NCBI GenBank assembly: GCA_021833625.1
Contig: JAKBEU010000002.1
Coordinates: forward strand, 186,001-250,000
DNA length: 64,000 nt
Reading direction: 5' to 3'
Source of the DNA: a bacterium
GTDB lineage: Bacteria; Patescibacteriota; Microgenomatia; UBA1406; GWC2-37-13
This document shows, in pieces, positions 32,178 to 43,868 of the stretch. The position numbers and the translations under genes were made by a program. How positions within the stretch are numbered: the stretch's first letter is position 1; each line of letters begins with the position of its first letter. The notes under the pieces were generated by a model. It saw only the letters and a list, made by a program, of their open reading frames with translations. It was not told where the DNA came from and did not search any database.

Positions 32178-33266
32178 TCATTTTGTTTTTAATTTTGTAA
32201 AAAACAGTTCAAGGATTTTGTAATAGGTATCAAGGCTTTTAATCAAGACCCACTCACAGTCTCCGTGAAGTCCCTCCCCGACGGGTCCGCACGTAACGCC
32301 ATTCACATGAATGCCATTATAATGTCTGATATCAGACCCTCCATGTTTTGAGATAATTTTCGGAGGGGAGTGGGTGATGACTTTTACCGACTGTTTCAGC
32401 AATTTTACATACTCATTGTTTTCATCAGTAAGTTGAGGAGGCTCGAATGACTGGTACTCAAGCTCCATACTGGGAAACATTTTTGATAACGTTTTCTTTA
32501 TAGAGTTCCAATCTTCAGGAATGAAGCGTACATCAAGTTTCATTTCGCAATTGTCGGGAACTTTATTAAACGTTACATTTGAAGTTTCTATTTTTGCGAT
32601 ATTAATGCTTGTCCGCCACTGTTCTTTTGTAAGAACGGGGTATTTTTTTTCAATCATGTCAAGCGCCTTTTTCATTTTGAGAATTGCGCTTTCTCCTCTC
32701 CATTGATATGCCCCGTGAGCGGCGACACCCGTCGCTTTAACATTGACCCAAATAATTCCCTTTGCTTTGTTGTTGATGCCGTAGTCCGTCGGTTCTGCGG
32801 CAATTACAAAATCTGCCCGTACCCCCTGTTTTATTTGATGTTGCGTGCCGTTGTACCCTCCAATTTCCTCATCGGTAACGAGTTGTAGTCCAATCGGATA
32901 GGGAAGGAGGCGGGACAATTTTTTAAACAAAACAATTTCAACGGCAGCTCCACCTTTCATATCAATTGCACCTCTCCCATAAAGTTTTCCGTCTTTTTCA
33001 AACGGAATAAACTGTTTGGCGTTTCCTGCAACCACATCCAGGTGTCCGTTAAGTATTACCTTGAATTTCTTTGGTCTGCTTTTGCCGGAGTATACAAGAA
33101 TGCTCGGTTTTTTGTTTGAAGAAAACTCTTCAATAGTAAATCCGTTTAATTCCTTTTTTACGGCATTTATAATTTCCTGCAACTTTTTTTCGTTTGAACC
33201 GACTGACTCTATTGAAATCAATTTTTTTGTCAGATCCAAAATTTCATTTTTCATATGCTCATTCAT
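32178..33266 (-). CDS. M20 family zinc metallopeptidase / deacylase
   Basis: 362 residues of the ArgE/DapE/CPG2 fold. Zinc ligands and catalytic residues are all visible: GHLDVV (His, Asp) near 75, GRGAIDMKGG near 98, VTDEEIGG (catalytic Glu) near 130, AAEPTD near 157 and the closing GLHGDCEWV His near 340. It hydrolyses an amide bond of a small peptide or acylated amino acid; the substrate is unknown. Its ATG directly follows the stop of the ATPase gene, making it the last gene of the four-gene operon starting at 37389. Confidence 0.87.
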   Translation of the reverse strand: MNEHMKNEILDLTKKLISIESVGSNEKKLQEIINAVKKELNGFTIEEFSSNKKPSILVYSGKSRPKKFKVILNGHLDVVAGNAKQFIPFEKDGKLYGRGAIDMKGGAAVEIVLFKKLSRLLPYPIGLQLVTDEEIGGYNGTQHQIKQGVRADFVIAAEPTDYGINNKAKGIIWVNVKATGVAAHGAYQWRGESAILKMKKALDMIEKKYPVLTKEQWRTSINIAKIETSNVTFNKVPDNCEMKLDVRFIPEDWNSIKKTLSKMFPSMELEYQSFEPPQLTDENNEYVKLLKQSVKVITHSPPKIISKHGGSDIRHYNGIHVNGVTCGPVGEGLHGDCEWVLIKSLDTYYKILELFFTKLKTK

Positions 33267-35178: not shown

Positions 35179-37389
35179 TTAATTGGTTAATAACTGGGAA
35201 TTTCTCATTTCTTCCGGATACTCTGTCTGACCATAGAGATAGCGTATATAACTCTCCAGTTTTGGGTACACTTTTCTCATCAGTTCCCGGGCGCTTCTGT
35301 TTGAATCGTCTTTGGACATTTGCTTGGTGCTTCGTGCTTCTTGTACGCTCACAAGTTCTCTAAGCAGCGTTGCAAAATCAGGGTCCCATAGAAACTGCAT
35401 AGCATGATGGACAAACGGATTGTCAGAAAGAGGGAAGTATGCCTGCATATTTAGGCTTTCGAGCTTTTTTTTCAGTTCTCCCATTCGACTTTCATCTGAC
35501 AAGTAATGGGGAAGCGCTGCTTGAACTTTTACAAATTCGCCCTGTGCCACCTCAAGAGCTTTCTGTTTTTCGCTTAGTTTATTTCCTAATTCTTTTTCCA
35601 TTTTTTCTGCCCCCCGGACCTGTCCGCCCATATATTCGACAACAGATCCGCTTTGCACCGGTACGCTTCCTGCCAAAAGGGAGTCAAGATACGCAACAAC
35701 CTCAGGAAGTCTTTGTACATCTGCACGCGTCATGTCATCAGCACTGCCTTCTTCAACTTTTCTTTGTGCGTTTTGAAGTGATTTTTCAGCGGAGGTACGC
35801 ATTTTTTTTACCATCTCGAGTTCTGTTGGCTTTACATGTGTCACTTTGCCTTCTGTCAATGTGCGACTAAGCGTAAGATATCTTTGATTTTCTGCAACAG
35901 ACTGTTCCTGTTGGACAAATTGCTGGTGTGCCTTATCCACTCCCTGTTGGGCTTTTTTCAGGGGAGCAAGCGTGGCTTGCAGCTTTGTCAGTTCGCCTAT
36001 TGTGTCCGCTTTTTCTTTGCTGTTATCAGCAAGATACGATCTCAAAAACTGCAGGTGCTCGGTCACGTTGTTTCGGTGGAGTCGTGCGGGATTGCTGAAT
36101 TGTTGATCGACCGATTCTAAGAAGGTTCTTGTCTCCTCAGGTGTGCCAAGCTTTCCGGAAAAATTGAGTCTCGTCTCATGTTGCACTCCGTTTCTGAATG
36201 TGGGAAGATCGGCAAATCCAACAGCTAATGCTTGCGGATTTTGGGTTGCAAATCTCAGGTAAATATCCCTCATCATAATAAGCCCACGTGCGAACGCCGG
36301 ATCGTTTCCCATTTTTTCTAGTTCCTCACTCGATGGCTCTCTTAGTCCCATAATGACATCCTTCGGAAGATCCATTGAGCCCCACCGGAGATGGTCTATC
36401 TGTTTTTCGCGGACATGGTAGTCTGACTGAAGAGCTCTTTCCATTGCTGCTCTCACCGGTCCGTTATGACCGTCGCTGTCAAGCTGTCTTTGCAGTGCCT
36501 GTTGTACCAATTGCAATTCATTTGGCCCCATATAGGTATAAATAACTTCAGCAATACGGAAGGAGGGATCATAGGGGAGACCCATTTGTGAAAACCACTC
36601 AGATAACGCTTGAGGTAACCCCAGTTCGTCAAAGTTAACCGACAACACCGTTGAGTCAGGATTAATGAGTTTTGATCTTCGTTTAACTATTTCATTTATT
36701 CGCTCGTATGCTGCCTTCGTTTCTGTTTGCGCTTCATCATGGGGAACTCCAAACTCATTTTCAAGCCGCGATGCCCACATGTCCGACTCGATTAAATGAA
36801 CCATTTCACTTTGTCCTCCCAAGAGTGCCCCTGAGGCATGAGTTATGGAGGGCGCTAAATTAACGAGCTTTCGCGCGGTATCCGCAACAACTTCCGGCGT
36901 AACCAATCCGTTTTGCATTGCAACGCGAAGTTCGGTCATTGTCCGCACTCCCCATGTTTCGATGACACAGGATCCGCCGGTATGCATATTATTTGTTTCT
37001 CGGACGGTGAGCTCTCCCGGCACGGAACGAACGCGGACATAGTCTGATGTTCCTAGGTTTGAGACTGCAGTTTCAAATTCCGTTGGAGTCAGGTTTTCAG
37101 GGCCCCTGCTTGTCGGAGAAAACTGTGTATATCCGCTCATCCAATTCGGGTTATTGGCAGGGTCAAACCGTCCGTCGTACCTGTTTGGCCTATGAAAATC
37201 GTCTCCATATTCTCCTGAATCGCTTGTTGGCGGCCATATTTTTCCCAGTACCCCCCTATGGAAATTCAGATATCTTTCAAATCGGGTCCCTCCCTCCATA
37301 ACTCCTTCCAGAGGATCCATTACCTCAGCTCTTGGAATGGGGGTTCTCAAGACTTCATTGGTCCTTTTCGCTTCGATGACTGTACTCAT
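35179..37389 (-). CDS. 736-residue soluble protein with long coiled coil, unknown function
   Basis: No family recognised. Residues 1-440 look globular, with Gly/Asn/Pro-rich parts at the start (about 30-110) and a TGGSCVIETWGVR segment near 135. A coiled-coil-rich region spans about 440-650 (KLQATLAPLKKAQQGVDKAH and NKLSEKQKALEVAQGEFVK). A helical end follows. No membrane helix or signal peptide is visible. It is Gln- and Glu-rich compared with its neighbours. It is the first gene of a tight operon (12 bp to DUF1177) behind a structured leader, so its cellular partners may be the ATPase and peptidase. Confidence 0.7.
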   Translation of the reverse strand: MSTVIEAKRTNEVLRTPIPRAEVMDPLEGVMEGGTRFERYLNFHRGVLGKIWPPTSDSGEYGDDFHRPNRYDGRFDPANNPNWMSGYTQFSPTSRGPENLTPTEFETAVSNLGTSDYVRVRSVPGELTVRETNNMHTGGSCVIETWGVRTMTELRVAMQNGLVTPEVVADTARKLVNLAPSITHASGALLGGQSEMVHLIESDMWASRLENEFGVPHDEAQTETKAAYERINEIVKRRSKLINPDSTVLSVNFDELGLPQALSEWFSQMGLPYDPSFRIAEVIYTYMGPNELQLVQQALQRQLDSDGHNGPVRAAMERALQSDYHVREKQIDHLRWGSMDLPKDVIMGLREPSSEELEKMGNDPAFARGLIMMRDIYLRFATQNPQALAVGFADLPTFRNGVQHETRLNFSGKLGTPEETRTFLESVDQQFSNPARLHRNNVTEHLQFLRSYLADNSKEKADTIGELTKLQATLAPLKKAQQGVDKAHQQFVQQEQSVAENQRYLTLSRTLTEGKVTHVKPTELEMVKKMRTSAEKSLQNAQRKVEEGSADDMTRADVQRLPEVVAYLDSLLAGSVPVQSGSVVEYMGGQVRGAEKMEKELGNKLSEKQKALEVAQGEFVKVQAALPHYLSDESRMGELKKKLESLNMQAYFPLSDNPFVHHAMQFLWDPDFATLLRELVSVQEARSTKQMSKDDSNRSARELMRKVYPKLESYIRYLYGQTEYPEEMRNSQLLTN

Positions 37390-37409
37390 AATAAGGGTAA
37401 AACTAAAAA

Positions 37410-37430
37410 CCCCGCCTTTGTGGGGCGGGG
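37410..37430 (-). terminator. Intrinsic-terminator-like hairpin just upstream of the 736-aa gene
   Basis: CCCCGCC (37410-37416) pairs with GGCGGGG (37424-37430). Read on the minus strand the stem is followed by TTTTTAGTTTT. It lies 20 bp before the ATG at 37389, so it would either end transcripts from serS or attenuate expression of the operon. Confidence 0.7.
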
Positions 37431-37460
37431 AAAATATTTATAAATAATAAATAAATTCAC

Positions 37461-37474
37461 CCGCCTAGAGGCGG
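37461..37474. repeat. Short GC hairpin
   Basis: CCGCC, TAGA, GGCGG: a 5-bp stem with a 4-base loop in A/T-rich DNA. It has no T-run on either side. It is one of three similar CCGCC hairpins in the 363-bp gap. Confidence 0.4.
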
Positions 37475-37533
37475 AGAATAAGACAAAAGACAAAAATAAT
37501 AACGCCGAATATATTCGGATTTGGTGTTTTCAT
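37465..37533 (-). CDS. Possible 22-residue hydrophobic peptide
   Basis: ATG at 37533 reads MKTPNPNIFGVIIFVFCLILRL and stops at TAG (37465-37467). It is nearly all membrane-type sequence after residue 7. A TATAAT at 37567-37562 (minus) lies 28 nt upstream. Its stop falls in the hairpin at 37461-37474. Such short hydrophobic peptides resemble type I toxins, but length alone makes chance likely. Confidence 0.2.
   Translation of the reverse strand: MKTPNPNIFGVIIFVFCLILRL
37505..37518. repeat. 14-bp perfect palindrome, operator-like
   Basis: CCGAATATATTCGG is fully self-complementary and lies mid-gap upstream of the 37389 operon. Its length and symmetry fit a dimeric repressor site. No cognate regulator is evident in the window. 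Confidence 0.35.
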
Positions 37534-37600
37534 TAGTTACAGTAAAAAATAAACGACTCCGATTATAAATAGAAAAATAAAAAATTCTCCCATAATACTG

Positions 37601-37723
37601 AAAAACCCGCCTGTCTGGGCGGGTGCTTTTTAAAAGGTTTTTCCTTTTTTATCCATTAAGCACCTCGCCTGGTAAGGCAAAGTTGTTTAACGATAATAAA
37701 GGAAAAACGACTGTTCATATTAC
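37601..37723 (-). ncRNA. Candidate structured small RNA or 5' leader (about 123 nt)
   Basis: It starts about 7 nt after a strong promoter and ends at an intrinsic terminator. GUUUUUCCUUU (37708-37698) pairs perfectly with AAAGGAAAAAC (37647-37637). Inside, UUAUC/GAUAA, GUUAAAC/GCUUAAU (one A-C mismatch) and ACUUUGCCU/AGGCGAGGU continue the stem to a UACC loop. Several pairs are G-U on the minus strand and would be A-C on the plus strand, which supports minus-strand transcription. No Rfam family is recognised. It could be an independent RNA, or a leader with attenuator for the operon at 37389. There is no other gene in 37390-37752. Confidence 0.55.
37606..37623 (-). terminator. Intrinsic terminator of the candidate RNA
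   Basis: CCCGCC (37606-37611) pairs with GGCGGG (37618-37623) around TGTCTG. The minus strand continues with TTTTT (37605-37601). The plus strand has TGCTTTTT after the stem, so it could work weakly in both directions. Confidence 0.75.
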
Positions 37724-37729
37724 CTGTTC

Positions 37730-37756
37730 ATTATATCACGATTTTTATAAAGTCAA
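37730..37756 (-). promoter_or_regulatory. Strong promoter of the candidate RNA
   Basis: Minus strand: TTGACT (37756-37751), 15 bp, then TATAAT (37735-37730) with TG one base upstream (extended -10). The -35 box overlaps the serS stop codon. It is the best two-box promoter match I found in the window. Confidence 0.65.
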
Positions 37757-41710: not shown

Positions 41711-42841
41711 TTATGGAGCCAAATCGACAAGACGAATATACGTTGTCAGTATTTCGCATATTTTTGAAACGGACTGTAAGGATACCCACTCGTTGCATGA
41801 ATGCGCGTTTCCGCCCACCGGGCCAATACCAAGTGTAGATATTTTGTGAGAGCCGAATATATTCTCATCCGCAACGGAAGACCTGAAGTAGGGAACTGCC
41901 TTTTTTCCCGTTGCTTCTCGTATGCTTTTCTTCATCAAAGAAAGATGAGTGTCGCGGGGAGAAACAACATAGGGTTCAAGAAACGGACTTTCTCTTTGCT
42001 TCAGATTGATATCGACTGAAATCTTATTCCCGTATTTTCTTTCGATTCTTGCCGCTACTCCTTTCAGTTTTGCCAATAACTTTACATGCGTAAGGGGAGG
42101 AAGGACAGCAGAGTCCAGTTCACACATAATCTGCTCGGGAAGAGACATACCGGTTGTTTTTGATTCTATTTTTCGTACGAATACAAATTGTTTTTTATCT
42201 CCGTTTTTTTTATACATTTTTTTTAGGGACTGTATAAATTCGCTTAGGACATAGTTAATGTCACATGAGGGTTCGTAAAAAGCATAGTGCTTTGACTGTC
42301 CCCTTATTGATACGGTATATACAGCTCGTCCTATTCTCCCGACTACTATTCCCTGGTTACCGTTTGCAAATGCCGGTTCCGTAGATATGACATTTACGAC
42401 GTCCTCCATGAAAGAAGAATTGATAAGTTTAAATCCTCCTTTTGAGATATTTTCCTCATCAATGCAAAATGCCATTTTAAGCTTTATGTTTTTCGGAGAC
42501 GAATTGAGAAACGAAATGATACTGGCAACCATTCCTGCTTTCATATCCCAAGCTCCGAGCCCATATGCACGGTCTCCCTTAATATTAAGAGTGTAGGGAT
42601 CCGTCATCCATCCATTTGCAATTCCCACTGTGTCTAAATGTGTATACAGCAGAATACTTTTCTTACTCGAACCTTTTTCAACAAGTATGTTATATCTGTC
42701 CTTTTCAACGAGCTGTTTTGTCACCCTGCAATTTTTCTTCAGAAAAAAAGAATATATATATTCGGATATTTCTTTTTCGTGAGGATATCCGGAAGGGATG
42801 GCAACGAGTTTTATAAGCAGTTGTTGTATATCAGTGTTCAT
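41711..42841 (-). CDS. Second M20 family metallopeptidase / deacylase
   Basis: 376 residues. THLDTV (ligands His, Asp) near 75, GLGAWDMKAG near 103, IDEENISKGG (catalytic Glu pair) near 135, STEPAFANGN near 160 and GGNAHSCNEWV near 345. The sequence is only distantly like the M20 gene at 32178, so it is a separate subfamily rather than a duplicate. The start at 42841 is chosen because a -10 box ends 6 nt upstream. ATG 42847 is the alternative. It overlaps the GNAT gene by 11 bp. Confidence 0.87.
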   Translation of the reverse strand: MNTDIQQLLIKLVAIPSGYPHEKEISEYIYSFFLKKNCRVTKQLVEKDRYNILVEKGSSKKSILLYTHLDTVGIANGWMTDPYTLNIKGDRAYGLGAWDMKAGMVASIISFLNSSPKNIKLKMAFCIDEENISKGGFKLINSSFMEDVVNVISTEPAFANGNQGIVVGRIGRAVYTVSIRGQSKHYAFYEPSCDINYVLSEFIQSLKKMYKKNGDKKQFVFVRKIESKTTGMSLPEQIMCELDSAVLPPLTHVKLLAKLKGVAARIERKYGNKISVDINLKQRESPFLEPYVVSPRDTHLSLMKKSIREATGKKAVPYFRSSVADENIFGSHKISTLGIGPVGGNAHSCNEWVSLQSVSKICEILTTYIRLVDLAP

Positions 42842-43868
42842 GGGCATATTGTAACAATTTATCACGCGTCATATAGGTCGGCAACAGATCATTTTTTTCG
42901 CTCAAGGGTCGGTCATCATTCACTCCTCCGGATATGCGGACGTGCTGTTCAAGAAATCGGGGAGGAAATCCGAACTGTGCCAAAGTTTCTATGCTAGTCG
43001 TTCGACCGAGCGTACGCGCAGCCCGCAGCACCCCTGGTGCCTGTGCATTTGACTCTCCGTATAAAAGATCGATATCGGTTTGCGCAAGGACTTTCATCAA
43101 CTCGGATGCAATTTTTGTATAAAGTCCTTTGCCGCGATACTCTTCGCGTGTTGCAGCTTCCGTTATCTCATACATGACAAACGGTTGAGGTGCGCCCCCT
43201 CTTTCTATTGCAAACTCAGCGCGTTCCGCCATGCCCGCACTTACCAACTGATCGCCGACAAATGTCCCCAGAAGAATATTGGTGGGATTTTGAAGAATAT
43301 TTATGACCTCGTCTCTTGACCAACCAAAGGCCTTATACAACTGCGCATATTGATCAATGATGTCCTCGTCAACCCGATCTCTTTCGGTTATTTCCCTGAA
43401 CCCGTAAGGAGAATAATCATGTTCCTTGTTGGACGGAGGATTGCCCATTATTTCCCGAACTGCCTGCAGCTCCTTTTCAAACAGTTCAGGCGGCGTATGT
43501 CTCTCCTGTGCATTTTTTCCCAAATATAAAATGGAACAATCATTAAACATTTTTCCGTCTCCCGAAAGTCTGATGATGCCTTCAACTAGAGGCGTTATCC
43601 GTTCGCGCTCATCAGGCGTTAGCCCTGAAAGCACGGCGTTCTCGACAAAATAACGTGCACTTATTCGGGTGGTATCAGCGCTAAGCGGCATCTGGCTGAA
43701 TTCACTTGATAATTGAAGCAAGTCTCCGGGAAGCGTAATCACGGCAGGATAGATACCTTTTTTGCGCTTCTCGGAAGCGGCAACGGGAGGGTAGGTGACT
43801 TCTCCAACACTGCTTGTTTGTATTGCGGGAATATCATATCCGTTCCCCTGCATCTCCATTTGTGCCAT
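42831..43868 (-). CDS. GNAT family N-acetyltransferase-like protein
   Basis: 345 residues. The C-terminal half has a GNAT core: LLGTFVGDQLVSAGMAERAEF as strands, then EITEAATREEYRGKGLYTKIASEL with the acetyl-CoA loop (R-G-K-G-L) near 255-265, and a DLLYGESNAQAP segment. The first about 150 residues are not recognised. It probably acetylates an amine of a small molecule or protein. It overlaps an M20 deacylase gene, so the pair might add and remove an acyl group, but that is context only. Confidence 0.75.
   Translation of the reverse strand: MAQMEMQGNGYDIPAIQTSSVGEVTYPPVAASEKRKKGIYPAVITLPGDLLQLSSEFSQMPLSADTTRISARYFVENAVLSGLTPDERERITPLVEGIIRLSGDGKMFNDCSILYLGKNAQERHTPPELFEKELQAVREIMGNPPSNKEHDYSPYGFREITERDRVDEDIIDQYAQLYKAFGWSRDEVINILQNPTNILLGTFVGDQLVSAGMAERAEFAIERGGAPQPFVMYEITEAATREEYRGKGLYTKIASELMKVLAQTDIDLLYGESNAQAPGVLRAARTLGRTTSIETLAQFGFPPRFLEQHVRISGGVNDDRPLSEKNDLLPTYMTRDKLLQYAHEH
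42848..42853 (-). promoter_or_regulatory. Leaderless-type extended -10 element for the M20 peptidase
   Basis: Minus strand TGTTACAAT ends exactly 6 nt before the ATG at 42841, within the last codons of the GNAT gene. The 19-mer TTGTTACAATATGCCCATG closely matches that of serS. Confidence 0.6.

Follow-up and report, generated by a model that had tools for sequence, protein, structure and literature searches.

Two ribosome-mediated transcription attenuators of the trp/ilv type very probably follow one another on the minus strand between serS and the next gene of the window (the whole 64,000-nt stretch of DNA analyzed here), at positions 37756 to 37405. Low charging of tRNAs with certain amino acids appears to turn on the operon that lies downstream. 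serS ends at 37753 and the next minus-strand gene begins at 37389, with both attenuators in between. The genome that contains the window is 1.10 Mb in size, and the nearest named relatives of its serS are mostly from Candidatus Roizmanbacteria and other Microgenomates. An earlier note on this DNA had proposed a new small RNA or an attenuator leader at the end of serS. Of that proposal, the attenuator leader, acting as a switch ahead of the 37389 operon, is well supported; the new small RNA is unneeded in view of the leader ORF, the predicted switching, and the relatives, and the element fits the description of a translated leader-peptide ORF better than that of a noncoding RNA. The leader ORF, the antiterminator pairing, and the second attenuator (37533 to 37405) were absent from the earlier note. 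The features are as follows, all on the minus strand.

37730 to 37756, minus strand: predicted promoter, from sequence (-35 box TTGACT at 37756 to 37751, 15-bp spacer, TG-extended -10 box TATAAT at 37735 to 37730)
37656 to 37718, minus strand: leader ORF 1, MNSRFSFIIVKQLCLTRRGA, 20 codons, ATG 11 nt past the -10 box and nearly leaderless, with homologous leader ORFs in relatives
37680 to 37703, minus strand: control codons S6 to L13 (TCC TTT ATT ATC GTT AAA CAA CTT), from folding by ribosome position
about 37637 to 37708, minus strand: long 1:2 hairpin, the stem described in the earlier note
37658 to 37669, minus strand: segment 2, GGCGAGGUGCUU, at the stop codon of leader 1, from complementarity to segment 3
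37618 to 37628, minus strand: segment 3, AAGCACCCGCC, which forms the 5' arm of terminator 1 or, in the antiterminator, pairs with segment 2 (2:3 pairing)
37601 to 37624, minus strand: terminator 1, ACCCGCCCAGACAGGCGGGU, with U run (stem 37624 to 37605)
37537 to 37593, minus strand: small ORF MGEFFIFLFIIGVVYFLL, directly past terminator 1, role uncertain
37465 to 37533, minus strand: leader ORF 2, MKTPNPNIFGVIIFVFCLILRL, its stop running into segment 2'
37460 to 37465, minus strand: segment 2', GGCGGG, at the stop of leader 2
37405 to 37430, minus strand: terminator 2, CCCCGCCCCACAAAGGCGGGG, with U run, from sequence and folding
35179 to 37389, minus strand: first operon gene, 736 amino acids
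32178 to 35166, minus strand: likely remainder of the operon, by strand and spacing (a DUF1177 protein, a protein with a P-loop-like motif, and an M20 [ArgE/DapE-like] hydrolase)

Anatomy and predicted switching

The promoter was found on the minus strand just as the earlier note had described it, and its TTGACT box shares bases with the TGA stop codon of serS. It is missing from the list of a simple consensus scanner because that scanner demands a spacing of 16 to 18 bp. The long hairpin and intrinsic terminator of the same description were also borne out: the 131-nt minus-strand RNA has a folding energy of -44 kcal/mol (z = -5.2), and none of 200 shuffles was as stable. The plus strand is equally foldable (-45.5 kcal/mol), and therefore the G-U pairs from which the minus strand had been favored are not in themselves enough to decide the strand; the assignment to the minus strand holds because of the promoter, the leader ORF, and the homologues. 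No Rfam family reached its gathering score over the hairpin region, in agreement with the earlier failure to match SRP RNA, tmRNA, 6S RNA, RNase P, or a T-box. Relaxed thresholds gave only sub-cutoff scores of a generic hairpin-plus-terminator kind, and the Rfam leader Phe_leader (RF01859) scored 29.9 bits against a gathering score of 55.

Leader ORF 1 lies between the promoter and terminator 1, as do its equivalents in relatives, and overlaps the hairpin from its 5' arm through its loop. Three pairings were found in the window, with energies of -30.4 kcal/mol for 1:2, -20.0 kcal/mol for 2:3 (the antiterminator, which has one bulged A), and -13.0 kcal/mol for 3:4 (the terminator). Antiterminator and terminator are mutually exclusive. 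When the folding of the free RNA was computed for each ribosome position, with the ribosome footprint modeled simply, the choice between them was set in silico by where the ribosome stood: the simulated probability of the antiterminator was 0.17 without a ribosome, 0.97 to 1.0 with the ribosome at codons 6 to 12, and 0.21 with it at the stop, and this behavior was robust across footprints of 11 to 18 nt. In the folding model, the 1:2 hairpin sequesters segment 2 when leader 1 goes untranslated, and a stall at control codons S6 to L13 frees it.

These pairings suggest the following course of events. RNA polymerase would initiate just upstream of leader ORF 1. With the tRNAs for the hydrophobic codons (Ile, Val, Leu, and possibly Phe) charged, the ribosome would proceed to the stop codon and cover segment 2, the terminator would form, and transcription would end at about position 37601. 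At low charging, the ribosome would stall at codons 6 to 13 and block the 1:2 hairpin, whereupon segment 2 would take the 5' arm of the terminator and the polymerase would read through. Attenuator 2, with its own leader, would repeat the test ahead of the 37389-to-32178 operon. Charging of Ile, Leu, and Val, perhaps with Phe, is most likely what the pair senses; Lys and Gln codons also sit among the permissive codons of leader 1, which counts against a firm assignment of the sensed amino acid.

The second attenuator was matched at 37401 to 37514 both by R1 (E value, 0.004), a covariance model built from the window and four relatives (L003, L010, L028, and L031), and by model R2 (E value, 5e-7). 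Its segment 2' can pair with the CCCCGCC of terminator 2 (37430 to 37410). A clear 1:2 hairpin was not found on folding of attenuator 2, which therefore would allow read-through unless leader 2 is translated to its end. Tandem units occur elsewhere, in genomes G015, G022, G025, G052, and G069, and the tiny ORF MGEFFIFLFIIGVVYFLL matches in position the second leader of the tandems in G015 and G069. This ORF stops 3 bases ahead of the start of leader 2 and is possibly a coupled extra leader.

Conservation of the element in relatives

The earlier note had made conservation in relatives one of the tests of its proposal, and the same layout and leader ORF were found there. Three genomes of one genus (L010, L028, and L031) share the layout downstream of serS, and L003, of the same genus, has the element away from the end of serS. 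In the window and all four of these relatives (5/5), an ORF of about 20 codons begins 10 to 13 nt past the -10 box and extends across the hairpin's 5' arm and into its loop. The leader peptides of the relatives are MVSNGFSFQLTFLLLFTEAGL (L003), MRTNILSVLFIQLIIPQRAD (L010), MVHKSLSVLFIQLITPKRAE (L028), and MVNKIVSVCFMLLITPQRAE (L031).

A search with R1 gave matches, many of the weaker ones provisional, in 62 of 72 family genomes at an E value of ≤0.05; 90 matches were read one by one. With R2 at an E value of ≤0.001, matches were found in 28 of 29 sampled family genomes, in a further 42 genomes of the class, and in 14 genomes of the phylum outside the class, the E values of this extent search being rough and its filters strict. 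Several of the weakest matches at the phylum level (L295, L299, and L300) did not have the appearance of attenuators. A match before a gyrB/parE-like gene (G000:C2:188868) lacks a leader ORF and is probably false. DNA similarity to the element itself returned few matches, because conservation is mainly limited to the switch elements.

Among relatives, 76 of 85 switched in silico, compared with 65 of 425 dinucleotide shuffles, a switch being defined as a maximum antiterminator probability of >0.7 that falls to <0.3 at the stop. The permissive stretch typically terminates where the control codons lie in a run. Segment 2 is a GGCGG-rich block on or close to the leader stop, and it is complementary to segment 3, which forms the terminator's 5' arm. 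The 1:2 and 3:4 helices covary, with 277 cells changed on both sides against 90 in shuffled and 38 to 69 in slid controls, in an alignment fitted to the model. A -10-like box (5 or 6 of 6 positions) is present no more than 25 nt from the leader ATG, mostly at 6 to 14 nt, in 56 of the 76 switching relatives; the corresponding count for a control stretch is 12 of 76. Only 4 of the 76 leaders have a Shine-Dalgarno-like tetramer ahead of them. Since the -10 box lies so near the ATG and Shine-Dalgarno sequences are rare, the leaders appear close to leaderless.

The possibility that the tiny hydrophobic ORFs encode a type I toxin or a small protein of the membrane was considered and dropped, as the ORFs of relatives end at GGCGG blocks before terminators, like leader peptides.

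Leader codons and downstream genes

Across the family, the codons of the leader match the pathway of the downstream gene for HisG, DAHP synthase, IlvB, IlvE, and LeuA. Leaders such as NFYFYF, NYFYFYF, and FFYFYFF precede DAHP synthase; LNLLLNL and ALLILA leaders precede 2-isopropylmalate synthase (LeuA); IIVLL-type leaders precede the branched-chain transaminase (IlvE); a VIIALVLI leader precedes acetolactate synthase (IlvB); an SHH leader precedes HisG; and an ITTTT leader precedes ThrS. Outside the family, where genes were named by sequence resemblance, FYF leaders precede DAHP synthase (L276 and L283), a VIIALIITR leader precedes IlvB (L279), and MTSKLFFAFFFTSRKRG precedes a PheS-like gene (L286). 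Runs of aromatic codons occur before 9 of 10 DAHP synthases and 12 of 75 other genes (P = 6e-6). One of those 12 is an SFYYY leader (L207; G002:C10) before a relative of tryptophanase/tyrosine phenol-lyase, an enzyme that is normally catabolic and that here would stand behind a starvation switch.

As a guard against bias from the RNA model, the DNA upstream of all 11 HisG genes and of 30 ThrS genes in the family was read independently of that model. Upstream ORFs with His-His were found at 7 of 11 HisG and 0 of 30 ThrS genes (P = 1.5e-5). Those with Thr-Thr-Thr were found at 7 of 30 ThrS and 0 of 11 HisG genes, which is not significant alone (P = 0.16), and no Thr-run upstream ORF was found at the other 23 ThrS genes, the majority of those read, a point against the codon match. 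In the genome that contains the window, outside the window itself, a leader with a Thr run, MITFFSITTTTFS, lies before threonyl-tRNA synthetase (G000:C2:121875-121976; L178). At G000:C2:111953-112062 (L117/L164) of the same genome, the attenuator leader MKNNLSVLFIRLITPPRAG lies directly before a histidine decarboxylase gene (above the NCBIfam cutoff). Its control codons are Ile, Leu, Val, and Phe and not His, which counts against the codon match.

The operon behind the window pair would extend from 37389 to 32178, its membership and boundaries being judged from strand and spacing. The 736-amino-acid protein encoded by its first gene has no Pfam or NCBIfam family match. Its homologues in five other genera follow the leaders MQSKVLSCFYLIFINR; MIKKVLSSIICFFVLIMMPYRAGRFLITR and MEQSVLFIFILVMFYSYLAGN; MKNQVWSIKYFLFLTR; MKKRVLFIIILHFLLLF; and MKNQALSYLFVLFISPFTGGRMT, respectively, a pattern from which a hydrophobic (I/L/V/F) leader seems to accompany this gene family. 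No such leader was seen directly upstream of two other homologues (L308 and L313). Genes of M20-family peptidases/deacylases lie on the minus strand at both 41711 to 42865 and 32178 to 33266, within about 10 kb, the latter in the attenuated operon.

These comparisons bear on other explanations of the element. The leader peptide might itself arrest the ribosome in response to a metabolite, in the manner of SecM, TnaC, or SpeFL, for example through a terminal RAG, RAD, or RAE; the closest relatives do end in RAG, RAD, or RAE or in RAG before the stop, and one group of them precedes histidine decarboxylase. We set this explanation aside as highly improbable because the codons of the terminal residues fall within the GGGCGG pairing block, and this explains why they are conserved; moreover, the leader in the window ends in RRGA, and the ends of other relatives are unrelated, yet their control codons match. 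A stand-alone, trans-acting small RNA ending at terminator 1, with an accidental leader ORF, is slightly less probable still. It would have its own promoter and terminator, and a stable RNA of about 120 nt would accumulate, but such a transcript is also the expected terminated leader of an attenuator. Relatives show the same reading frame, stop position, and alternative pairing, with codons that track the downstream gene; control in cis accounts for this conservation, so no small RNA is required to explain it. Least credible of all is a mere serS terminator region with chance structure, since, although a terminator is expected after serS and the stem folds on both strands, the fold has a z score of -5.2, switching is far above that of shuffles, and relatives occur away from serS, ahead of matching biosynthetic genes.

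Comparison with known attenuators

Proteobacteria are the classical setting for such leader-peptide attenuators. The proteobacterial amino acid leaders (Trp, Leu, Phe, His, and Thr; for example, RF01859 Phe_leader and RF00513 Trp_leader) share with the present elements a leader ORF with control codons, a 1:2 hairpin, a 2:3 antiterminator, a 3:4 intrinsic terminator, and matching biosynthetic genes downstream. In contrast to them, the elements described here have conserved GGCGG/CCGCC blocks, fall below the gathering scores of the Rfam leaders, and have leaders that would begin nearly at the start of the transcript and are rarely (4/76) preceded by a Shine-Dalgarno-like sequence. In the multivalent ilv-type leaders of Escherichia coli, a single leader mixes Ile, Leu, and Val control codons. 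The window shares this mixture but differs in its shorter leader (20 codons), its two serial attenuators, and its uncharacterized downstream operon.

In Actinobacteria, attenuators of trp, ilvB, and leuS (PMC1262725) and of ilvBNC in Corynebacterium (PMC10272879 and PMC11857589) have been predicted or studied. They share the mechanism, the GC-rich complementary antiterminator/terminator triples, and the mixed branched-chain codons, whereas the present elements belong to another phylum, differ in sequence, and cover a broader set (aromatic, His, Thr, Leu, Ile/Val, and Met leaders) that includes serial pairs. A survey of premature terminators has spanned 302 species (PMC2965389). We found no report of leader-peptide attenuation in CPR/Patescibacteria in the part of the open-access literature that was searched.

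Implications for Patescibacteria

The mechanism itself is classical, and switches of this kind are found repeatedly ahead of amino acid genes across a little-studied branch of bacteria. Patescibacteria can hardly be cultivated, and their genomes are tiny, with few regulators known. A recognizable attenuator names the amino acid to which a gene answers, and the leaders can therefore be read as labels for uncharacterized operons. In the family, Phe/Tyr, Leu, Ile/Val, His, Thr, and Met leaders precede known and unknown genes alike; a VMMM leader with three Met codons, MSKLISNSSVMMMPQPLRRR, for instance, precedes a gene of no known family (L222; G071:C5). The elements imply coupled transcription and translation and regulated amino acid metabolism in Patescibacteria. 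We tentatively propose, as a possibility that we hold to be somewhat short of even, that a large leader-peptide attenuation regulon is one of the main means of amino acid control in Patescibacteria and that many of the I/L/V/F attenuators, the window pair included, govern uncharacterized, nonbiosynthetic operons. These operons might form a starvation program, perhaps for getting amino acids from a host, that would come on at low tRNA charging and, in the window, be filtered by two serial attenuators.
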